IMG/VR virus record: IMGVR_UViG_3300005935_000076 | Coordinates: 1-31,819 of that record | DNA: 31,819 nucleotides | Strand: one strand, 5' to 3' | Source: a virus | Shown here: positions 10,151 to 27,313 of the stretch, piece by piece | How positions within the stretch are numbered: position 1 is the first letter of the stretch | Layout of the letters: each line of letters opens with the position of its first letter | Notes under the pieces: generated by a model | The model's database searches: none | The model's input: only the letters and a program-made list of their open reading frames with translations | Told to the model about the DNA's origin: nothing | Made by a program: the position numbers and the translations under genes

Positions 10151-10396
10151 ATGAGTAAAATTACAAGTAGAGAACAAATAGTTTCGTTGGCAGACAATAT
10201 CCGTCATCGTAGAAATAGATTAGGGTTGTCTCAGCGGGTGTTAGCTGAACGTATGGGTGTACCACAGCCTCGTGTGTCTGATTTAGAGTGTGAACGGAAT
10301 GATAATCCTCAATTACAAACTATGATTGCTTTAGCGAACGCTTTGGGCACTAATTTGTCGAAGCTTTTGAAAATAAGCTATAAGGAAGAACAATGA
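10151..10396 (+). CDS. XRE/Cro-CI family transcriptional regulator
   Basis: An 81-residue single helix-turn-helix protein. IRHRRNRLGLSQRVLAERMGV then PQPRVSDLECERNDNPQLQTMIALANALG is the full five-helix XRE domain, with LSQRVLAERMGVPQPRVSDLE as the DNA-reading part. It most likely represses or activates a nearby phage promoter. The palindrome inside the promoter at 11405-11433, one kilobase downstream, is an obvious candidate operator, but the link is inference. The stop overlaps the next start (ATGA). Confidence 0.88.
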   Translation: MSKITSREQIVSLADNIRHRRNRLGLSQRVLAERMGVPQPRVSDLECERNDNPQLQTMIALANALGTNLSKLLKISYKEEQ

Positions 10397-11352
10397 GAAT
10401 TTTGGTCACAGGGGCGGCTGGATTCATTGGCTATCATGTATGTAAGAGATTGCTTGTAACAGGCCATGATGTTTACGGAATAGATAATTTGAATGATTAT
10501 TATGATAAATCTTTGAAAAAAGCTCGTTTAGCAAATTTGATTGATTATTCTAATTTCACATTCTGCTGTTATGATATTACAGATCAAGATAGTATTGATT
10601 CTTGGTTTGATAATAATCGTCCTGAAATAGTTATTCATCTTGCAGCAGAAGTGGGTGTTCGTAATTCATTAAAAAATCCGCAAGCTTATGTTAATACCAA
10701 TATAGTTGGATTTTTGAATATTCTTGAAGGTTGCAAACGAAATGAAGTTAAACACTTAATCTATGCTTCGTCTAGTTCTGTATATGGTGGTAATGATTTA
10801 ATTCCTTTTTCAGAAGAACATAATGTAGATCGACCATGTAGTTTGTATGGAGCTACTAAAAAAGCTAATGAGTTGATGGCTCATACTTATAGTCATTTGC
10901 ATTTTTTGCAGACAACTGGACTTCGATTTTTTACTGTATATGGGCCTTGGGGAAGACCCGATATGTCTTATTTTTTGTTCACTAAAGCTATTTTGGAAAA
11001 CAAACCTATTGATGTTTTTAATCATGGTCAAATGAAAAGGGATTTTACTTATATTGATGATATTGTTGATGGAGTAATAGCAATTCTCAATAGAAAAAGA
11101 CTTCCTCTATATTCTGTTTATAACATTGGAAATAATCAAGTAGTCTGGCTTGATCATTTTATTGAGTTGATTGAAGATGGTTTAGGGAAAAAAGCTGTAA
11201 AAAACATGATGTCTATGCAGGGTGGGGATGTCATAGCAACTTATGCTAATATAGATAAAATAGCCAAAGATACTGGTTTCCGTCCAAGTGTTTCTTTAGA
11301 AGAAGGCATAAAGCGATTTTTGAAGTGGTACAAGGATTTTTATACAGTGTAG
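10393..11352 (+). CDS. NAD-dependent sugar epimerase, UDP-glucuronate 4-epimerase-like
   Basis: A 319-residue extended short-chain dehydrogenase. GAAGFIG (7-13) binds NAD. Ser126-Ser129 in ASSSSVYG and Tyr152-x3-Lys156 in LYGATK are the catalytic triad. LRFFTVYGPWGRPDMSYF is typical of UDP-glucuronate/UDP-glucose 4-epimerases of the capsule (CapI/Gae) branch. It would interconvert UDP-glucuronate and UDP-galacturonate. The UDP-glucose 6-dehydrogenase at 15100, which makes UDP-glucuronate, supports that assignment. Length is normal for the family. Substrate choice between UDP-glucuronate and UDP-hexose is inferred. Confidence 0.85.
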   Translation: MRILVTGAAGFIGYHVCKRLLVTGHDVYGIDNLNDYYDKSLKKARLANLIDYSNFTFCCYDITDQDSIDSWFDNNRPEIVIHLAAEVGVRNSLKNPQAYVNTNIVGFLNILEGCKRNEVKHLIYASSSSVYGGNDLIPFSEEHNVDRPCSLYGATKKANELMAHTYSHLHFLQTTGLRFFTVYGPWGRPDMSYFLFTKAILENKPIDVFNHGQMKRDFTYIDDIVDGVIAILNRKRLPLYSVYNIGNNQVVWLDHFIELIEDGLGKKAVKNMMSMQGGDVIATYANIDKIAKDTGFRPSVSLEEGIKRFLKWYKDFYTV

Positions 11353-15099: not shown

Positions 15100-16431
15100 G
15101 TGAAAGTAAAATACATAGAAGTTATTGGAGCTGGGTACGTTGGCCTTGTTACAGCGGCTTGTTTGGCTGATAAAGGTCATTATGTGATGTGTGTTGATAC
15201 TGATGAAGAAAAAATCAAATTATTAAAAGATGGTATTATTCCAATACATGAGCCGGGATTGAAAGAATTGATTGTTGAAAATCAAAAACAAGGTCGTTTG
15301 CTTTTTTCATCAAATTTCAAATTTATGTTAATGAATCCTGATTTTATTTATCTCGCAGTGGGCACACCGTCAAATGAAGATGGTTCTGTAAATCTTTCTT
15401 ATCTGAAATCGGCGGCAATCTCAGTAGCTCAACGATTATGTGCAAAAACCATTATTATCTGCAAGAGTACCGTTCCTGTGGGTACGAATAAAATGCTCGC
15501 AGAATTGATTGATTCCCACACTGATGTTCCATTTGAAGTCGTAAGTAATCCCGAATTTCTTAAAGAGGGATCAGCTATTGATGATTTCAATAATCCTGAT
15601 AGGGTTGTGATTGGTAGTCGGAGTTCAGCGGCTTCAGACAGGGTTGAAGAATTGAATGATTTTGAAAATGGTTCCGTTTATAAAGTTATTAAAGCATTCC
15701 CGGAATCAGCCGAATTGATAAAGTATGCCTCTAATGCTATGCTTGCTTCTAGGATTAGTTTTATTAACGAGATTTCTAATCTGTGTGAACATTGTGGGGC
15801 TGATATTGATGAGGTTAAAGAGGGTATTGGGGCTGATAAGCGAATAGGTGGAGCATTTTTGAACCCAGGTGTAGGTTATGGGGGTTCGTGTTTCCCAAAA
15901 GATATTCAAGGTTTAGCACAAATGGGAAATGAAAATAATATTATTCTAAGAACAGTAGCGGCAATATTTGACGCCAATGAACTACAAAAACGGGTGATGT
16001 ATGTTAAACTTTATAGTTATTTTCGGGATAATTTGTACAATAAACGAATCGCTATTTGGGGATTGGCTTTCAAACCTGAAACAGATGATATACGAGAAGC
16101 TCCGGCTTTATCATTGATTAATACTTTGTTAGACGTTGGTGTAACAGTAGTTGTGCATGACCCAGAGGCAATGGACAATGTCCGGGCGATTTATGGTGAT
16201 AAGTTGATTTATTGCAATAATAAAGAGGATGCCTTGGATAATGCCGATGCTTTAGTGATTATGACAGAGTGGGATGATTATAAATGGAGTCAATTTCTGG
16301 AAATGAAAAACAGAATGAAAAAGCCGGTAGTGTTTGATGGCCGAAATATCTATAAACCCTCTGTAGCGAAGATGGGTGGTCTTACTTATATCAGTATGGG
16401 TCGAAAATCTGTTAATGTAGAGGAAAAATAG
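15100..16431 (+). CDS. UDP-glucose 6-dehydrogenase
   Basis: A 443-residue enzyme of the usual length for the family. GAGYVG (10-15) binds NAD. The catalytic cysteine is Cys264 in GYGGSCFPKD. Glu-containing PEFLKEGSA, the helix with the conserved KYASNA, and the C-terminal IAIWGLAFKPETDDIREAPA are all present. It oxidises UDP-glucose to UDP-glucuronate, the substrate of the epimerase at 10393. It sits among replication genes rather than with the glycosyltransferases. Start is a GTG with AGGGA nine bases upstream; an in-frame upstream start (15067) lies inside the primase gene and adds non-conserved residues. Confidence 0.93.
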   Translation: MKVKYIEVIGAGYVGLVTAACLADKGHYVMCVDTDEEKIKLLKDGIIPIHEPGLKELIVENQKQGRLLFSSNFKFMLMNPDFIYLAVGTPSNEDGSVNLSYLKSAAISVAQRLCAKTIIICKSTVPVGTNKMLAELIDSHTDVPFEVVSNPEFLKEGSAIDDFNNPDRVVIGSRSSAASDRVEELNDFENGSVYKVIKAFPESAELIKYASNAMLASRISFINEISNLCEHCGADIDEVKEGIGADKRIGGAFLNPGVGYGGSCFPKDIQGLAQMGNENNIILRTVAAIFDANELQKRVMYVKLYSYFRDNLYNKRIAIWGLAFKPETDDIREAPALSLINTLLDVGVTVVVHDPEAMDNVRAIYGDKLIYCNNKEDALDNADALVIMTEWDDYKWSQFLEMKNRMKKPVVFDGRNIYKPSVAKMGGLTYISMGRKSVNVEEK

Positions 16432-16712: not shown

Positions 16713-16725
16713 ATACGAGACTTAG

Positions 16726-16753
16726 ACCATTTTCCCGGCGATGGGAAAATGGT
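16726..16753 (+). terminator. Strong hairpin after the membrane protein gene
   Basis: Perfect 11-bp stem: ACCATTTTCCC (16726-16736) with GGGAAAATGGT (16743-16753), loop of six bases. No T-run follows, so it may be a transcript-end stabiliser or a terminator needing a factor. Confidence 0.5.
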
Positions 16754-16823
16754 AGACAAATGAATACTTGATAGTATTGACCAATATGGTTAAAAAGTAA
16801 CTATTTATCCAAAAGCGTACATG

Positions 16824-16832
16824 TGGTATAAT
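16824..16832 (+). promoter_or_regulatory. Extended -10 promoter of the structured RNA
   Basis: TGGTATAAT is a perfect -10 (TATAAT, 16827-16832) with the TGn extension. No clear -35 exists at the usual distance, as is normal for extended -10 promoters. Transcription would start around 16839, just before the first element of the structured RNA. Confidence 0.65.
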
Positions 16833-16838
16833 TACTTT

Positions 16839-17000
16839 CTCGTACACCGTATTAGAGTCCCGGTGCTAATAGCAGGAGCAAAAGACGTATGAAGACAACT
16901 GTTTGTGAAAATAAATTAATTATAGAAACATTCACTTTTGGTTGTAGTGTATGTCTTTTGTAAAGTCCCCAAGGACTCTAAAACTTGGGGACTTTTTTTT
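16839..17000 (+). ncRNA. Structured ~160-nt RNA / attenuator leader upstream of the replication initiator
   Basis: Between an extended -10 promoter and a strong terminator lies a sequence with nested complementary segments: TTAGAGTCC (16852-16860) with GGACTCTAA (16973-16981), CAAAAGACGTA (16879-16889) with TATGTCTTTTG (16950-16960, one G-U), ACAAC (16895-16899) with GTTGT (16941-16945), and GTGAA (16905-16909) with TTCAC (16931-16935). Together they would form a long rod, with the outer helix reaching into the terminator loop. Near the 5' end CACCG/CGGTG (16845-16849/16861-16865) and TATTAG/CTAATA (16850-16855/16866-16871) are mutually exclusive hairpins. No convincing reading frame is present. 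It is either a stand-alone small RNA or a leader controlling read-through into the initiator gene at 17050. Confidence 0.65.
16962..17000 (+). terminator. Intrinsic terminator just upstream of the initiator gene
   Basis: AAAGTCCCCAAG (16962-16973) pairs perfectly over 12 bp with CTTGGGGACTTT (16984-16995), loop of ten bases, and the stem runs into eight Ts (16993-17000). This is a textbook rho-independent terminator 50 bases before the initiator start codon. Its loop (16973-16981) is perfectly complementary to 16852-16860. Confidence 0.92.
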
Positions 17001-17049
17001 ACAAAGGATGTTAATTATACTACAAAACAATCAATTCGGAGGTTTTCCC

Positions 17050-18117
17050 ATGCCTAAAAGTAACTACTTTCGACTACCAAACTGCTGGACAGACATAACT
17101 CACGACATAACGTCTTTGTCTGAATTAAAGGTTATTGAGTATGTATTACGACATACTTGGGGATTTGACGAATATGAAAAGCCTAAGAGAATAACAATAA
17201 ATGAGTTCATTATGGGCCGGAAAAAAAGAGATGGGAGTAGGATGGACAAAGGTACAGGATTATCTGAACCTTCTGTGATAAGAGGATTAAAAAAAGCAGT
17301 AGAAAATGGTTACTTAGAAGTCGAGTTGGACGGAAGGGATATGGCACGAAAAAAGAAGTTTTATTATCTAAGAATGGCAAAAAAAGATGAACCATCAAAA
17401 GTTAAGTCCAGACCTAAAGAAGTGACAGTTAGCTCTAAAGAAATGATAGTCAGACCTAAAGAAACGTTAGTTGGCTCTAAAGAAACGTTAGATCGTACAG
17501 AGAAAGACACTATAAAGAAAGACACTATAGAAAGAAACTTAATAGATAACTATTTGTCGAACCCTCCCGGGCCCGACGAAGTTACTGTAGTTTTTAATAA
17601 GTCTTTGAAAAATAATAAGTCTGCGGAAAAAAAGACGAAGTCTACAACTCCTTCTAAATTTGATATAAGAGCCGCCAAGAAACTTCACAAAATAGTATCC
17701 TCTTACATAACCATAAACTGCCGTTCAAAAATAAGTGAGTGGTCAAAACATTTTCGGTTAATGAGAGAATATGATAAAGTACCGGCTCCTAAAATTAAAG
17801 AGGCATTATTGTGGTTTGAGAAAAATATAGGAAAACTCTACGTTCCCGAGTGTTTTTCAGGAAAGTCTTTTCGGGAGGATTATAACGATGGAAAAATCCA
17901 AGCTGCTATGATTCGAGAGAAGGAAGATGAAAAAAGAATACAGAAAAAGAAGAATATGGCGAGTGGTGATGTTTATTACGGGGATATTAACGTAAGGTAC
18001 GTGCAGAGTAAGTATTTCACCAAACACGGATTTGGGCCTGCAAATCAAAAACAACTTGATGAGGTATTGGTAGAAATGGGATATTCTCCCGGTGCTGTGC
18101 CTTCTAGTAAGATTTAA
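17050..18117 (+). CDS. Replication initiator-like winged-helix protein (lambda O type)
   Basis: A 355-residue protein. The N-terminal 110 residues (YFRLPNCWTDI, SELKVIEYVLRHTWGF, TGLSEPSVIRGLKKAVENGYL) follow the winged-helix plan of phage O-type and plasmid initiators. A low-complexity linker of heptads with the pattern x-x-K-E-x-x-V (about residues 120-150) is encoded by 21-bp DNA repeats. The C-terminal part (KFDIRAAKKLHKIV onward) is basic and helical and may recruit the helicase encoded next. The start at 17050 has GGAGG seven bases upstream; the longer open frame from 16951 would begin inside the terminator. Role as origin-binding initiator is inferred from domain type, repeats and position. 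Confidence 0.75.
   Translation: MPKSNYFRLPNCWTDITHDITSLSELKVIEYVLRHTWGFDEYEKPKRITINEFIMGRKKRDGSRMDKGTGLSEPSVIRGLKKAVENGYLEVELDGRDMARKKKFYYLRMAKKDEPSKVKSRPKEVTVSSKEMIVRPKETLVGSKETLDRTEKDTIKKDTIERNLIDNYLSNPPGPDEVTVVFNKSLKNNKSAEKKTKSTTPSKFDIRAAKKLHKIVSSYITINCRSKISEWSKHFRLMREYDKVPAPKIKEALLWFEKNIGKLYVPECFSGKSFREDYNDGKIQAAMIREKEDEKRIQKKKNMASGDVYYGDINVRYVQSKYFTKHGFGPANQKQLDEVLVEMGYSPGAVPSSKI
17414..17497 (+). repeat. Four 21-bp iteron-like direct repeats inside the initiator gene
   Basis: The octamer CTAAAGAA begins at 17414, 17435, 17456 and 17477, exactly 21 bases apart, and most of each unit is similar (for example ACGTTAG in units 3 and 4). Degenerate units may flank the array (near 17393 and 17498). 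The arrangement copies that of the lambda origin, where iterons lie inside gene O. Confidence 0.78.
17501..17529 (+). repeat. Two 15-bp-spaced direct repeats next to the iterons
   Basis: AGAAAGACACTATA occurs at 17501-17514 and again at 17516-17529. The next ~30 bases are A+T-rich. Adjacent to the iterons this could be the DNA-unwinding part of the origin. Confidence 0.6.
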
Positions 18118-18265: not shown

Positions 18266-19654
18266 ATGAAGCACAAGAAGTACGATGGGAGTGATTCACG
18301 TCGAATACTCTCCGCTATGATTACAGATGCGACGGTTTGTGCTAGAATTGGGAGTAAGTGGGAAAATGTTGGACTTTTTGCTAGTAGAACGGAGAATTTG
18401 ATAGCTAAGTGGGCTATAAAGTATCATCAAAAGTATGGAATAGCTATTAGGGAGAATATTGAAACATCGTTTGAGAATTGGGCAGATGGTGGGCGAGTAA
18501 GAGAAGAAACTGTAGAATCTGTAGGGAAATTGCTTGACTTTTTGAGTGAGGAGTATGATAAGGAGGAATCTCAGTCAGTTGAATATATCTTAGACATGGC
18601 CGGTCGGTTATTCAATAAGGTACGTCTTAAACAGACTTTGATGGCGGCAGAGAGTGAAATAGACGATAATGAAGTTGAGGAGGCCCAGGATCGAATAGCT
18701 GAGTTTCGGAAAGTTGAGCTTGGTGTTGGGAGTGTTTTCAAGCCTGGACAAGATTTAGAAGAATGGAAGGAGGCTCTCGATAATTCTGCTTTGGAGCAAT
18801 TGGTTAAATACCCCAAAGGAGTGGGTAAGTTTTTTTGGGGGGAATTTGGACGTGATTGCTTTGTGTCATTTGTGGGGGCGTCAGGTTCTGGTAAATCTTG
18901 GTGGTTATTAGATTTGGGATATAGGGGAGCTAGACAGCGGAAAAGAGTAGCTTTCTTTGAAATTGGAGATATGTCCAAAAATCAAGTTATTCGTAGATTG
19001 GGTCAACGGGCTTTACGTAGACCTCGGTATGATCGGATTTGTAGTATACCAACTTCTTTGGTGCATGATGAGGAGGGGGTTGATACAGATGATACTATTA
19101 TAACAGAAGATCGGATGCTTTCTGCTATCACTCCGAAAAAGTCTTTGGATGCGTGGGAAAAAATTCAGCGAAAAAAGGACTTATTTAGGTTGTCGTGTCA
19201 TCCGAATAGTAGTATAAATATGGAAGGGATTGAATCTATATTACAAGATTGGATTAGTGGTGGATGGGTTCCTGATATTATCATAATTGATTATGCTGAC
19301 TTATTAGCTCCTCCGAGGGGTATACAAGAGGAACGAGCACAAATAAATCATAATTGGAAACGAATGAGGAGGATGTCTCAGGAATATCATTGTTTGTTGG
19401 CCACGGCTACTCAGGCTGATGCAAAAAGTTATGAAAAGGGATTGTTGCGTAGAAAAAATTTCACTGATGATCGTAGGAAAATAGATCATACGACGGCGAT
19501 GGTAGCTTTGAATATGACTGATTCTGAGAAAAATAGAGGTATTACTCGTTTGAATTGGTGGAAACGTCGTGATGAGGGGTATATAGAAACCCAACAATGT
19601 AAGATTGCGGGGAGTTTTTCTGTTGGATGCCCTATAATTTTGTCTTGTTTTTGA
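18266..19654 (+). CDS. DnaB-like replicative helicase
   Basis: A 462-residue RecA-fold ATPase. An N-terminal helical part of about 150 residues is followed by Walker A GASGSGKS (204-211), a strand AFFEIGDM as in DnaB (the EM motif), Walker B IIIIDYADLL (338-347), and TATQAD with Gln383 at the sensor/H3 position. MVALNMTDSEKNRGITRLNWWKRRDEG resembles the DnaB arginine-finger region. It would unwind the fork as a hexamer, with the separate primase at 14210. The first gene after the origin region, it has its own ribosome binding site (AAGGATGG). Confidence 0.88.
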   Translation: MKHKKYDGSDSRRILSAMITDATVCARIGSKWENVGLFASRTENLIAKWAIKYHQKYGIAIRENIETSFENWADGGRVREETVESVGKLLDFLSEEYDKEESQSVEYILDMAGRLFNKVRLKQTLMAAESEIDDNEVEEAQDRIAEFRKVELGVGSVFKPGQDLEEWKEALDNSALEQLVKYPKGVGKFFWGEFGRDCFVSFVGASGSGKSWWLLDLGYRGARQRKRVAFFEIGDMSKNQVIRRLGQRALRRPRYDRICSIPTSLVHDEEGVDTDDTIITEDRMLSAITPKKSLDAWEKIQRKKDLFRLSCHPNSSINMEGIESILQDWISGGWVPDIIIIDYADLLAPPRGIQEERAQINHNWKRMRRMSQEYHCLLATATQADAKSYEKGLLRRKNFTDDRRKIDHTTAMVALNMTDSEKNRGITRLNWWKRRDEGYIETQQCKIAGSFSVGCPIILSCF

Positions 19655-19760: not shown

Positions 19761-20114
19761 ATGGGAACAATTACAGGATGGACGAATTATCCATTTGTGG
19801 AACTGGGGGATACTCCACAGCAGTCTGGACCGTTACGAGAGTGTGAAGCATTGACTTATGATGGAAATAAGTATTCTGAGGTACTTGTTGCTGGATGTAT
19901 TTTTTATATGAAAATATTTTATGTTTTTCCAACAAGGAATGCTTGTCTTAGAGAAGTAAATTGGGTAAGTCACAAGTGGGCAAGTTCTTTGCCCAGACCA
20001 TCATGGACACATGAGGATTATAAGATTAATTCTTTGCCAATAATTAAGAATCCATCCAAAGTTGTGGATTTTTTATTGAGTATTTTGAGATTTGGAGAAG
20101 ATAAGGATGATTAA
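19761..20114 (+). CDS. Hypothetical protein
   Basis: A 117-residue protein, unrecognised. It is rich in aromatics and prolines (WTNYPFVELGD, KIFYVFPTRNACLREVNWVSHKW) and ends in an acidic tail. AAGGAG precedes the ATG. It is the first gene behind promoter copy 2. Its stop codon lies at the left foot of a long hairpin. Confidence 0.65.
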   Translation: MGTITGWTNYPFVELGDTPQQSGPLRECEALTYDGNKYSEVLVAGCIFYMKIFYVFPTRNACLREVNWVSHKWASSLPRPSWTHEDYKINSLPIIKNPSKVVDFLLSILRFGEDKDD

Positions 20115-20162
20115 GTTGAGGATTTAATTATTTCTCGTCGTGGCAGTGGGAGTCCTCGACTT
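20113..20162 (+). terminator. Long-loop hairpin at the end of the 19761 gene
   Basis: AAGTTGAGGA (20113-20122) pairs with TCCTCGACTT (20153-20162) over 10 bp with one G-U; loop of 30 bases; pyrimidine-rich tail (TCTCCTTCTTCC) follows. Similar in plan to the long-loop terminator at 31008-31067, but without a pure T-run. Confidence 0.42.
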
Positions 20163-20209
20163 TCTCCTTCTTCCATTGTCCGGCGGGATTATTTTGAAAG
20201 GTAATAGAA

Positions 20210-20338
20210 ATGAATGTTCAAAAATTGTATGAATATGTTCGGGAATTTTTTTGTGATACTTCCCGATTGGCCGAGGATACTAAGGCTGATTTAGAGTGGA
20301 TTAAAGAAGAGATTGATATTCTGTTAGATACACTTTAA
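20210..20338 (+). CDS. Very small protein (42 residues)
   Basis: A frame MNVQKLYEYVREFF... ending DILLDTL with AAAGG about eight bases upstream. It is amphipathic, acidic and predicted to be helical throughout. Length is too short to assign a function, but start, ribosome binding site and composition match its neighbours. Confidence 0.5.
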   Translation: MNVQKLYEYVREFFCDTSRLAEDTKADLEWIKEEIDILLDTL

Positions 20339-20359
20339 TTGCAAAGGAATGAGATTATT

Positions 20360-20509
20360 CAGGGTGTGGCGAAAATGGAAGACGTACATATAAGGAAGTA
20401 TCCATAATAGTTTGGTGTTCAGAATTATATGATTGATGGTGGAAACTGCCAATCAGCAGATGAACAAGTCCATAAAAATCCCATGCAGGTTCAAATCCTG
20501 CCATCCTGA
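20360..20509 (+). tRNA. Abnormal tRNA(Leu)-like sequence with ~65 extra nucleotides
   Basis: The ends form a good tRNA: acceptor CAGGGTG (20360-20366) with CATCCTG (20502-20508; one G-U), discriminator A20509, a class II D-arm (TGGCGAAAATGGAAGACGT, 20367-20385, very close to tRNA-Leu D-arms) and a perfect T-arm (GCAGG-TTCAAAT-CCTGC, 20485-20501). Between D- and T-arms lie 99 bases rather than about 35. CATATAA (20387-20393) and TTATATG (20425-20431) could extend an anticodon-like stem around 31 bases. I cannot place the anticodon. It may contain a small intron or insertion, or be a decaying gene. Confidence 0.5.
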
Positions 20510-20552
20510 TTTATTGTTTGTTTTATTGATTTTTTTTTGAAAGGAAATAGAT

Positions 20553-20726
20553 ATGATAGATATGTTTGCAGTTGAGCCCCATTTGTCAGATGGTATGACA
20601 GGCCGTAAGACGGGTCCATTTTCAACGCGAGAGCAGGCGGAGGAGGCTGGATTGTGTATGTTAGGTCTGCAAAATGGTTGTGCTGTGATTTGTGGATTTA
20701 GGATTATTGTTGAGAAAAAAGAGTAA
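20553..20726 (+). CDS. Very small protein (57 residues)
   Basis: A frame MIDMFAVEPHLSDGMTGRKTG, then TREQAEEAGLCMLGLQNG and CGFRIIVEKKE. The strand-helix-strand pattern with a QAEEAG helix resembles small phage proteins of the DUF-type found in early regions. AAAGGAAA precedes the ATG. Function is unknown. Confidence 0.58.
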   Translation: MIDMFAVEPHLSDGMTGRKTGPFSTREQAEEAGLCMLGLQNGCAVICGFRIIVEKKE

Positions 20727-20728
20727 GT

Positions 20729-20795
20729 TGCTTGATTACGATAATCTGATCCGTTAAAGTCGGAATAAAGGATAACTCAGTGAAATAATCAAGCA
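20729..20795 (+). ncRNA. Long hairpin abutting the second tRNA-like sequence
   Basis: TGCTTGATTA (20729-20738) is a perfect inverted repeat of TAATCAAGCA (20786-20795). Inside, CTGA/TCAG and TCCG-TTAAAGT-CGGA provide further helices, the last one shaped like an anticodon arm. It starts two bases after the preceding stop codon and ends exactly where the tRNA-like sequence starts. Confidence 0.4.
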
Positions 20796-20874
20796 CTCCC
20801 GGTAGCATAAGTGGGAATGCGACCCTCGTTATTATTATAGAGGGATTATGTGGGTTCGAATCCCATCCGGGTGG
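20796..20874 (+). tRNA. tRNA-like sequence with expanded anticodon loop
   Basis: Acceptor CTCCCGG (20796-20802) with CCGGGTG (20867-20873; one T-T mismatch); T8-A9; D-arm GCAT-AAGTGGGA-ATGC with the conserved A14, G18-G19 and A21; T-arm GTGGG-TTCGAAT-CCCAT (20850-20866). The anticodon stem CCCTC/GAGGG (20823-20827/20840-20844) closes a 12-base loop containing TTATTATTA instead of seven bases. Every other part is canonical. The amino acid identity cannot be read. Confidence 0.55.
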
Positions 20875-20920
20875 TTTTGGGGAAAGAAGAATTGTTTTTA
20901 GTTTTATAAGGAGTTTTGTG

Positions 20921-23488: not shown

Positions 23489-24673
23489 ATGGGTTTTTGT
23501 TGTCTAAAAACAGATTCAAAAAAACATGTTAGTACAAGACCATCTTGTGGTGCATGTGGTTTGTCTCGAAAATGTGTATCTCCTAAAATGAAGCCTATGG
23601 GTTTGGGCAAAAAGGAAATACTCATAGTGGGAGGTACGCCGGGACATCGTGAAGATAATGAAGGTATTCAAGTAGCTGGTGTGTCTGGTTTGTTTTTGAC
23701 TAATACTTTGGCTAAGTTGGGAATTGATTGTTTTGGTGATTGTTGGTATACCAACGCTGTCCTTTGTAAGACTGGGAATGTGAAGAATCAATCGAAGTAC
23801 GTTGATTTTTGCCGTCCTACTTTGTTGAAGACAATAAAAGAGTTGAAGCCTAAAGTCATAATTTTGTTGGGTAATCTTGCGGTAAAATCATTAATAGCTC
23901 ATACGTGGGGAAAAAATAAAGTAGGGTCTGTTGCGAGGTGGGCCGGTTTTCAGATACCTTGTCGGGAATATGATGCTTGGATTTGTCCTACTTATGAACC
24001 ATTTTTTGTTAAACAAGAGGACCATCCAGCTTTAGATTTATTGTTTATGCAACATATCCAAAAAGCTGTTGAATTAAAAGGGCGTCCCTGGAATGGTAAT
24101 GTGCCGGATTATGGTAAAGATGTGGAGTGTATTTATGAGGCAGACAAGGCTGCTAAAATACTGCGAAAAATGATTAAGAGGGGTGGTAGAGTAGCTTTTG
24201 ATTATGAAACCAATATGTTGCAGCCTTACGCGAAGGAAGCTCAGATTTTCAGTTGTTCGGTGTGTTGGGAGGGGAAGAAGACCATATCATTTCCGTGGCA
24301 TGGTGAAGCAATAAAAGTTATGGGAGAATTGTTGCGGAGTTCTCTGAAAAAAATTGTGTGGAATTTGAAGATGGAAAAGGTTTGGTCAGAAAGGGAATTT
24401 GGTTTTGAGGTTAATAATTGGTTATGGGATGGAATGATAGCGGAGCATGTTATTGATAATCGTCCGGGTCTAACTGGGTTGAAGACCCATGCGTTTCTTA
24501 GGATAGGACAACCAATATATGATGATGGAGTGAGTGAGTTTTTTAGGACGAAAAGACCTAATACTCCGAATAGAATAGATCAAGCCGATTTGGGACGAGT
24601 GTTGAAGTATGGTGGCATGGATGCTTTGCTAACTTTTAAGATAGCTAAACAACATTTTAAGGAGATATTGTGA
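23489..24673 (+). CDS. UDG-like domain fused to 3'-5' exonuclease; N-terminal part of a split family A polymerase
   Basis: A 394-residue two-domain protein. Residues 18-190 resemble Fe-S uracil-DNA glycosylases (family 4/5): Cys20, Cys23, Cys93 and Cys108 fit the cluster ligands, and VGGTPGHRED (47-56) and TYEPFFV (168-174) fit the active-site motifs. The usual Glu of GExPG is Gly49, and the usual His of the H-P motif is Glu170. Residues 230-394 are a DnaQ/PolA-type exonuclease: FDYET (237-241), NLKME (292-296, Asp replaced by Glu) and YGGMD (374-378). In related phages such a protein continues into the polymerase domain; here it stops and the polymerase is a separate gene (25976). Confidence 0.85.
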   Translation: MGFCCLKTDSKKHVSTRPSCGACGLSRKCVSPKMKPMGLGKKEILIVGGTPGHREDNEGIQVAGVSGLFLTNTLAKLGIDCFGDCWYTNAVLCKTGNVKNQSKYVDFCRPTLLKTIKELKPKVIILLGNLAVKSLIAHTWGKNKVGSVARWAGFQIPCREYDAWICPTYEPFFVKQEDHPALDLLFMQHIQKAVELKGRPWNGNVPDYGKDVECIYEADKAAKILRKMIKRGGRVAFDYETNMLQPYAKEAQIFSCSVCWEGKKTISFPWHGEAIKVMGELLRSSLKKIVWNLKMEKVWSEREFGFEVNNWLWDGMIAEHVIDNRPGLTGLKTHAFLRIGQPIYDDGVSEFFRTKRPNTPNRIDQADLGRVLKYGGMDALLTFKIAKQHFKEIL

Positions 24674-25975: not shown

Positions 25976-27313
25976 ATGACAATAACATACACAACAAAAG
26001 ATGCTTATGATTTATTCCATGAGGGACAGATTGCTTTCTCTCAGATGGAATCTAATGGTATGAGGATTGATGTACCTAGGATGACTAAGACCATCAAAAA
26101 AGTAGAGAAGCGAATAATCGAATTGAGTGCTGGATTGAAAGAAGATGATGTATGGAAGTTGTGGCGACGAAGATTTGGACAAAAAACCAATATGAATAGT
26201 CGTCCACAGTTAGGTGTAGTTTTGTTTGAGGAGATGGATTATAAAATAAAGAATAGGACGAAGACTGGAAGACCTTCCGTGGATGAGACTGCTTTGTCTA
26301 AGATAAAATTGCCTTTTGTGAAGCAATATTTGGAAATAGGAAAATTAAAGAAGTTGCAGTCTACTTATTTGAAGGGCATTCAAAGCTGTGTTGTTGATGG
26401 TTATTTGCATCCATCGTTTAACTTGAACTTGGTAAAAACTTTTCGGTCTTCATCAAATTCTCCGAATTTTCAAAATATTCCCATACGAGATAAATTGATT
26501 GGGAAATTAGTCCGTAGTTGTTTCATTCCTAGAGACAATCATGTGTTAGCAGAGGTCGATTTTTCCTCTATGGAATTTCGATGTGGGGCTTGCCACTGGA
26601 ACGATCCTGAATTAGTTAAGTATGCCAGTGATCCAGAACTAGACATACACCGGGATATGGCTGCTGAGTGCTTTGCAATGCCTATAGATCAAGTAACTCC
26701 CGAAGCTAGGTTTTTTGCTAAAAATCAATTTGTATTTCCTCAATTTTATGGTAGCTATTATGTGCCTTGTGCTAAGAATTTATGGTCTGTCATGGGTGGG
26801 TTGTCATTGAAAAATGGTCAATCGGTGAGAGATAATTTAGCAGCACAAAAGATAACAAGGACTAATTTTGAATCACATATTAAAAAAGTAGAAGATCATT
26901 TTCATTCCAGATTTCCAGTGTGGGCAGAAAGGAAGGATGCTTGGTGGGCTGATTACATAAAGCGTGGGTGGTTTGATATGGTAACAGGATTTCGGGTGAA
27001 GGGGGTTTATACTCGTAATCAATTGATGAATTTTCCTGTACAAGGTCCAGCATTTCATGCACTTTTATTGAGCTTGATTTTGGTTAATCGGTGGTTATTG
27101 AAAAACAAAATGAGGTCAAAAATTATAGGACAGATTCATGATTCGATAGTGTTTGATATACACTCCGAGGAACAGGACGAGGTATTGCAGAAAACGAAAC
27201 AGGTTATGACTGAGGAAATTAGAGAATTGTGGAAGTGGATTGTGGTGCCGTTAGTTGTGGACATAGAAGTGTCTGATACTACTTGGCATGAAAAAGAAAA
27301 AATTGAAATTTAA
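25976..27313 (+). CDS. Family A DNA polymerase, stand-alone polymerase domain
   Basis: A 445-residue polymerase lacking an exonuclease. It begins in the thumb (FSQMESNGMRIDVPRM, NSRPQLGVVLFEEM, TGRPSVDETAL). FRSSSNSPNFQNIP is the usual lead into motif A, VDFSSMEFR (194-202, with Asp195). Motif B runs Arg245, Lys249 to Tyr258-Gly259 with one more residue between Lys and Tyr than in E. coli Pol I. PVQGPAFHALL and motif C QIHDSIVFD (His388-Asp389) complete the active site. It probably pairs with the UDG-exonuclease protein at 23489. The start has almost no ribosome binding site, so translation may depend on the gene just upstream. Confidence 0.95.
   Translation: MTITYTTKDAYDLFHEGQIAFSQMESNGMRIDVPRMTKTIKKVEKRIIELSAGLKEDDVWKLWRRRFGQKTNMNSRPQLGVVLFEEMDYKIKNRTKTGRPSVDETALSKIKLPFVKQYLEIGKLKKLQSTYLKGIQSCVVDGYLHPSFNLNLVKTFRSSSNSPNFQNIPIRDKLIGKLVRSCFIPRDNHVLAEVDFSSMEFRCGACHWNDPELVKYASDPELDIHRDMAAECFAMPIDQVTPEARFFAKNQFVFPQFYGSYYVPCAKNLWSVMGGLSLKNGQSVRDNLAAQKITRTNFESHIKKVEDHFHSRFPVWAERKDAWWADYIKRGWFDMVTGFRVKGVYTRNQLMNFPVQGPAFHALLLSLILVNRWLLKNKMRSKIIGQIHDSIVFDIHSEEQDEVLQKTKQVMTEEIRELWKWIVVPLVVDIEVSDTTWHEKEKIEI

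Follow-up and report, generated by a model that had tools for sequence, protein, structure and literature searches.

The window, that is, the whole stretch of DNA analysed (31,819 nucleotides), is the virus record IMGVR_UViG_3300005935_000076, in which the long ORFs lie almost all on the + strand. The element described here is surrounded by genes whose products match the protein families of SNF2-type helicases, primases, replication initiators and DnaB-like helicases. The initiator matches PHROG 391 and 2514, which carry the annotations 'replication initiation O-like' and 'DnaD-like helicase loader', and its gene has a GGAGG site at about 17038–17042. The DnaB-like helicase gene is presumed to be the next gene of the same operon. 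Protein searches find no relatives of the initiator in cultured phages, and only distant ones of the window's helicases, polymerase and clamp loader. The features considered are the following, the promoter, P1, the Shine-Dalgarno and P3 being recognised from the sequence itself:

16824–16832, + strand: extended -10 promoter, TGGTATAAT
16845–16865, + strand: P1, 5' hairpin CACCG[TATTAGAGTCC]CGGTG
16852–16860, + strand: A, kissing segment TTAGAGTCC in the P1 loop (own-shuffle p = 0.005)
16874–16878, + strand: Shine-Dalgarno AGGAG of the leader ORF
16878–16961, + strand: P2, long hairpin (z -3.34 in the window)
16889–16963, + strand: leader ORF of 24 codons, MKTTVCENKLIIETFTFGCSVCLL (ATG at 16889, TAA at 16961–16963)
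16962–17003, + strand: P3, intrinsic terminator, 12-bp stem plus T run
16973–16981, + strand: A', kissing segment GGACTCTAA in the terminator loop, complementary to A
17050–18117, + strand: replication initiator (O-like/DnaD-like), the putative regulated gene
18266–19654, + strand: DnaB-like replicative helicase (PHROG 19, E 2.8e-24)

Other traits of the region are worth recording. Just 5' of the promoter, at 16724–16755, there is a 10-bp perfect inverted repeat, CCATTTTCCC-ggcgat-GGGAAAATGG, which has no T run and is possibly an operator or an origin element. The initiator frame stays open upstream through the terminator (16951–17049), as far as an ATG at 16951 that has no Shine-Dalgarno. Sugar-nucleotide genes, epimerase-like and UDP-glucose dehydrogenase-like by reading, are found in or near the replication region (10393–11352 and 15109–16431), and the UDP-glucose dehydrogenase-like gene separates the primase from the initiator, which are adjacent in several relatives. 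About 800 bp at 20114–20918 are gene-poor, with a single short ORF, and a weak tRNA match (34.4 bits, not called by ARAGORN) lies at 20796–20874. DNA polymerase A is split into two genes, 23489–24670 and 25976–27310, in such a way that a uracil-DNA-glycosylase domain and the 3'-5' exonuclease are fused while the polymerase domain is separate; a putative DNA methyltransferase-like gene, identified by reading, lies between the two parts.

Transcription of the leader probably starts at about 16839–16842, from a promoter whose -35 match, by reading, is weak. The terminator stem, AAAGTCCCCAAG / CTTGGGGACTTT, pairs 16962–16973 with 16984–16995 around the loop GACTCTAAAA (16974–16983) and is followed by the T run. 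Segment A is perfectly complementary over nine bases to A', which comprises terminator loop bases plus one stem base, and the duplex has an energy of -12.2 kcal/mol. A sequence-only reading of this DNA had correctly placed the promoter, the 12-bp terminator and the nine-base helix tying the 5' region to the terminator loop, but it counted the latter among four nested helices. The helix is not nested, because it pairs into the terminator loop and is interleaved with the terminator; the order A-B-A'-B', from P1 loop to terminator loop, defines a kissing pseudoknot. The two mutually exclusive 5' hairpins that it had proposed both exist, namely P1 (p = 0.063 for its stem on its own) and the alternative TATTAG/CTAATA hairpin at 16850–16871. 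In P2, the region of the leader ORF start is base-paired with the stretch immediately 5' of the terminator. The RNA is indeed highly structured, since positions 16836–17002 fold at -51.3 kcal/mol, against -32.4 ± 3.7 for shuffled sequences (z -5.07; 0/200 shuffles as stable). Fold energy alone is not decisive, as a scan of the whole window reaches z values near -5 in other windows too, some of them in coding DNA.

DNA similarity and exact-pattern searches retrieve a sole match, the near-identical contig IMGVR_UViG_3300031227_000232, which overlaps the window at 99.9% and extends beyond it, the observed differences all being outside the element; single-protein scans add nothing beyond this contig. 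Further relatives were reached via conserved neighbour proteins, with an SNF2 helicase alignment and then two DnaB-like helicase alignments. These three overlapping alignments of 80 loci each represent a broad set of uncultured phages, and they were complemented by 19 loci in genome bins, several of them of Planctomycetaceae. Many relatives have a strong terminator upstream of the initiator, with a loop complementary to a segment farther upstream, while such a terminator was not found in L018, L021, L022, L024 and many others. In 26 elements, the window included, the order P1, long hairpin P2 and terminator is found upstream of the replication module. The kissing match was one of the criteria by which these elements were picked; the ORF and P1 statistics given below were not directly selected for, yet they come from this curated set. 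The downstream gene matches replication-initiation families in 7 of the 10 relatives scanned, with no such match in the other three (L130, L132 and L159).

Two layouts can be distinguished. In type I, the layout of the window, the terminator loop has 5–14 nt and its partner, mostly within a 5' hairpin loop, is mostly located 80–130 nt upstream (53 nt in L256). In type II, the loops mostly measure 17–55 nt (12 nt in L230), the partner lies about 14–47 nt before the terminator and the pairing extends over 8–17 bp (15 bp in L017, 17 bp in L128), with the same A-B-A'-B' order. Type II is kept apart from type I because it gives a weak signal for the leader ORF (11/15, with 7.2 expected; p 0.03). 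The leader ORF of two type II elements (L017:10462-10566 and L027:10273-10370) seems to begin at or beside the transcription start, that is, to be leaderless, and overlaps the pairing segment.

The kissing complementarity was evaluated in 38 terminators upstream of dnaB, not selected on the kiss, by means of dinucleotide shuffles of the upstream 200 nt, and 41 terminators downstream of dnaB in the same loci served as controls. It is significant at p<=0.05 in 15/38 of the former and in 0/41 of the latter (Fisher 3e-6, Mann-Whitney 1.5e-8), and seven of the 38 reach p<=0.01. All 26 A sequences of the type I elements are distinct, and each is still complementary to its own A'; these are compensatory changes in homologues, whose absence had been named beforehand as speaking against the element. 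A terminator loop fits the upstream zone of its own element better than the zones of other elements (mean 17.9 vs 13.0; permutation p 5e-5, the lowest value attainable with 20,000 permutations; n=26), although this comparison is not independent, its 26 elements having been chosen partly by kissing match. The A segment of the window is the best partner for its terminator loop among the upstream zones of the 26 elements. The geometry recurs as well, with a helix of about 7 bp, usually 0–2 loop nucleotides before A' and up to six after it, larger loops often carrying AACTA, AACCT or AACTT 3' of A'. P1 is taken in the relatives as the hairpin found around segment A, the only one covered by the systematic count, and this stem is significant (p<=0.05) in 16/26 elements. 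A TATAAT, or a 5/6 match to it, precedes the kissing segment by 18–41 nt in most of the 26. Between L102 and L103, which are 74% identical, the terminator stem has changed on both sides, from GCCGG/CCGGC to GCCGT/ACGGC. The element is real, and it is conserved by its architecture and covariation.

Pairing between segments of the same strand in the leader of a phage gene has precedents in the CI RNA immunity of phage P4 and the c4 RNA of P1/P7. The element could likewise act in trans, so that the A and A' loops of terminated copies would act on new transcripts and the RNA, as its own antisense, would set replication timing or copy control. Both kissing partners do lie in one RNA that ends before a replication gene, and their sequences are phage-specific, as self-specific control predicts; in P4, the transcription of replication genes is terminated by such same-strand RNA pairing (PMC4825925). 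However, the similar loop geometry favours intramolecular pairing, and type II, with up to 17 bp formed a few tens of nucleotides away, resembles cis pseudoknots, so we regard trans regulation of this kind as improbable. P4 CI, unlike the leader described here, is a processed RNA derived from an untranslated primary transcript, and pairs with seqA and seqC. To our knowledge, neither P4 CI nor c4 RNA pairs into the loop of an intrinsic terminator, and the Rfam C4 family gives no gathering-level match at the element in the window and 14 relatives.

Structured leaders in which loop-loop contacts control a replication initiator are also known from plasmids, as attenuators or pseudoknots of the initiator genes of pT181, pIP501 and ColIb-P9 (repZ). 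These systems use an antisense RNA from the counter-strand, and that of ColIb-P9 acts on translation instead of termination. For the present leader, a consensus scan, too weak to serve as a test, lists no opposite-strand promoter-like site in 16824–17049. The leader of Salmonella Gifsy-1 IsrK likewise yields a small RNA and a read-through mRNA, although with a different structure and different genes; the part of the source consulted describes no kissing terminator.

The leader also holds a putative coding frame. It had been stated that no protein is encoded in it, which is probably wrong, as the window has a 24-codon ORF preceded by AGGAG and 24/26 elements have an ATG from which the frame stays open as far as the terminator, against 7.7 ± 2.3 in shuffles. 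An open ATG frame with a Shine-Dalgarno match of at least 4 is found in 14/26 elements, 1.6 being expected. The number of ATGs between P1 and the terminator is not above that of shuffles; of the 41 ATGs that precede P3 by 45 nt or more, 31 have a frame open as far as P3, a share that is 44% for other codons (p 4e-5), and ATG is the sole codon open in more than 16 elements. L132 and L227 lack a convincing ATG frame. The stop codon is placed at the first bases of P3 in the window, L129, L157, L213 and L237, just 5' of it in L122 and inside it in L102, L103, L217 and L226. Further leader ORFs stop beyond P3, and in L208, L196 and L232 the stop overlaps or touches the likely ATG of the initiator; the frame of L156 passes through the terminator and beyond a likely gene start. 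Many leader ORFs thus run past the terminator, and the terminated RNA of those relatives would have no stop codon.

The presence of a Shine-Dalgarno, an ATG and an open frame would agree with an ordinary short mRNA that is bounded by P1 and the terminator and codes for a functional micro-protein. This is a very improbable reading, as the leader peptides are unlike each other across relatives, except those of L102 and L103, and many frames reach the terminator without having met a stop. A conserved functional peptide was accordingly rejected. Judging from these comparisons, the relatives keep the possible access of a ribosome to the terminator, and not the peptide sequence. The open frame up to the terminator is left unexplained by another proposal, a discrete trans-acting small RNA (a sponge, decoy or antisense with a host or phage target), in which the P1-P3 kiss would close and stabilise the RNA and the terminator would both end it and insulate the initiator gene. 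Termination would release an RNA of about 160 nt, which makes the replication-control small RNA of the sequence-only reading possible, and the element has its own promoter, a strong terminator, a compact fold and a short TACAAT motif common to P2 of 10/26 elements. Nevertheless, the element goes with the initiator gene in the relatives inspected, and the loops, which would be the likeliest target contacts, differ in every relative, so that a small RNA of this sort seems unlikely.

Over the 26 elements, P2 folds better than shuffled sequence (mean z -3.2; z under -2 in 19/26), and its pairing tends to join the ribosome site to the bases directly before P3. The predicted unpaired fraction of this site falls in the window from 0.45 in the nascent RNA to 0.19 in the full RNA. 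Over the elements, predicted accessibility goes from 0.48 to 0.27 and is lower in 20/23, values that have no shuffle baseline and a fall that is partly expected from any added RNA. The frequency of TACAAT in P2 exceeds the shuffle maximum of 7 for any hexamer. The motif is located about 24–58 nt before the terminator (e.g., L226:2344-2349) and is a candidate pause site, -10-like element or loop motif; no consistent -35 is seen by eye that would make it an internal promoter.

Several known modes of leader control were compared with these features. Searches against Rfam 15 at gathering and permissive thresholds give no credible match, with no gathering-level hit at the element in the window and 14 relatives, in keeping with the earlier statement that no known family is recognised. 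Classical amino-acid attenuators (trp, his and phe leaders) do not apply, there being no codon run in the 24 codons and no antiterminator; a permissive Rfam match to Phe_leader scores 23.8 bits, far under the 55-bit cut-off. The 'riboswitch-like' label is likewise unsupported, given that no Rfam match and no conserved aptamer or ligand-pocket sequence is found and that the common features are the pairing and the TACAAT motif in P2. A classical antiterminator was rejected, since none of the 26 elements shows excess complementarity to the terminator 5' arm upstream of it (0/26 at p<=0.05); with nothing upstream competing for this arm, a trp-type antiterminator is unlikely. It could also be considered that the kiss itself is the antiterminator, delaying the terminator hairpin, so that a factor breaking P1 would turn the operon off. 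A' emerges ahead of the 3' arm and the kiss can therefore form first. Yet it is confined to the loop and enters the stem by at most two bases in type I elements, leaving it almost free, so that kiss and terminator are able to form together, and classical antiterminator pairing is absent; we consider this reading highly improbable.

A close parallel is the pyrBI operon of E. coli, with its leader peptide pyrL. As in pyrBI, an intrinsic terminator lies between promoter and operon, the leader frame reaches it and no antiterminator hairpin is needed, a nearby ribosome blocking the terminator in pyrBI and, as proposed, here. Unlike this leader, that of pyrBI senses UTP via polymerase pausing and serves other genes. 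We know of no kissing pseudoknot in pyrBI, nor of a hairpin hiding its leader ribosome site. The earlier suggestion of an attenuator setting initiator expression fits well with an element that recurs before initiator genes, with a strong terminator and a leader ORF reaching it. In E. coli, termination fell from about 90% to less than 10% when the stop codon lay 5 bp upstream of a terminator (PMC4824070), and the pyrBI leader relies on the coupling of translation and terminator (PMC5021804). Because a ribosome stopping near a terminator nearly abolishes termination and pyrBI makes use of this, we propose, with moderate confidence, that the leader is a translation-coupled transcription attenuator, with pyrBI-like logic, of the operon of the initiator and the DnaB-like helicase. 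The computation establishes the parts and how they are arranged, a kissing pair that covaries, a leader frame that stays open and a location ahead of the initiator; the attenuation mechanism itself is probable.

The model proposes that transcription begins just 5' of P1, and that a ribosome would load on the nascent leader ORF before P2 closes and would trail the RNA polymerase. On reaching a stop at, inside or beyond the terminator, it would cover the 5' arm of P3, and the blocked terminator would let the polymerase continue into the initiator and helicase genes. Without a ribosome, P2 would shut over the ribosome site, P3 would form and its loop would kiss the P1 loop, so that transcription would stop and a compact, untranslatable RNA would be released. 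P2 may set the timing by closing the ribosome site, and the docking of P1 and P3 may lock the terminated form. We infer the direction of control, from translation to read-through, and likewise that the kiss either aids termination or silences and protects the terminated RNA. The weak point of the model concerns the lag of the ribosome, owing to which terminators lying less than 100 bp into a coding region mostly function unless the polymerase pauses (PMC4824070); the ribosome must catch up within about 75 nt, and a polymerase pause would be required, for which TACAAT in P2 is only a candidate signal.

The element is undescribed in Rfam 15 and in the literature searched, in which, with subscription journals mostly outside its scope, the kissing-terminator architecture was not found described either. 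Tentatively, and as a possibility a little short of probable, it may represent a phage RNA switch of a new and widespread class. In such a switch, a 5' hairpin would kiss the terminator loop through covarying bases, a leader ORF hidden by structure would sense translation and gate the initiator, and the terminated RNA may also have sister genomes as targets in trans. Terminators might moreover be tuned or protected by docking their loop on a 5' hairpin, which we did not find described in that same literature. How phages time the start of DNA replication is known for only a few models, and this element, if the proposal is true, would be a recurring RNA switch at the replication start of uncultured phages.
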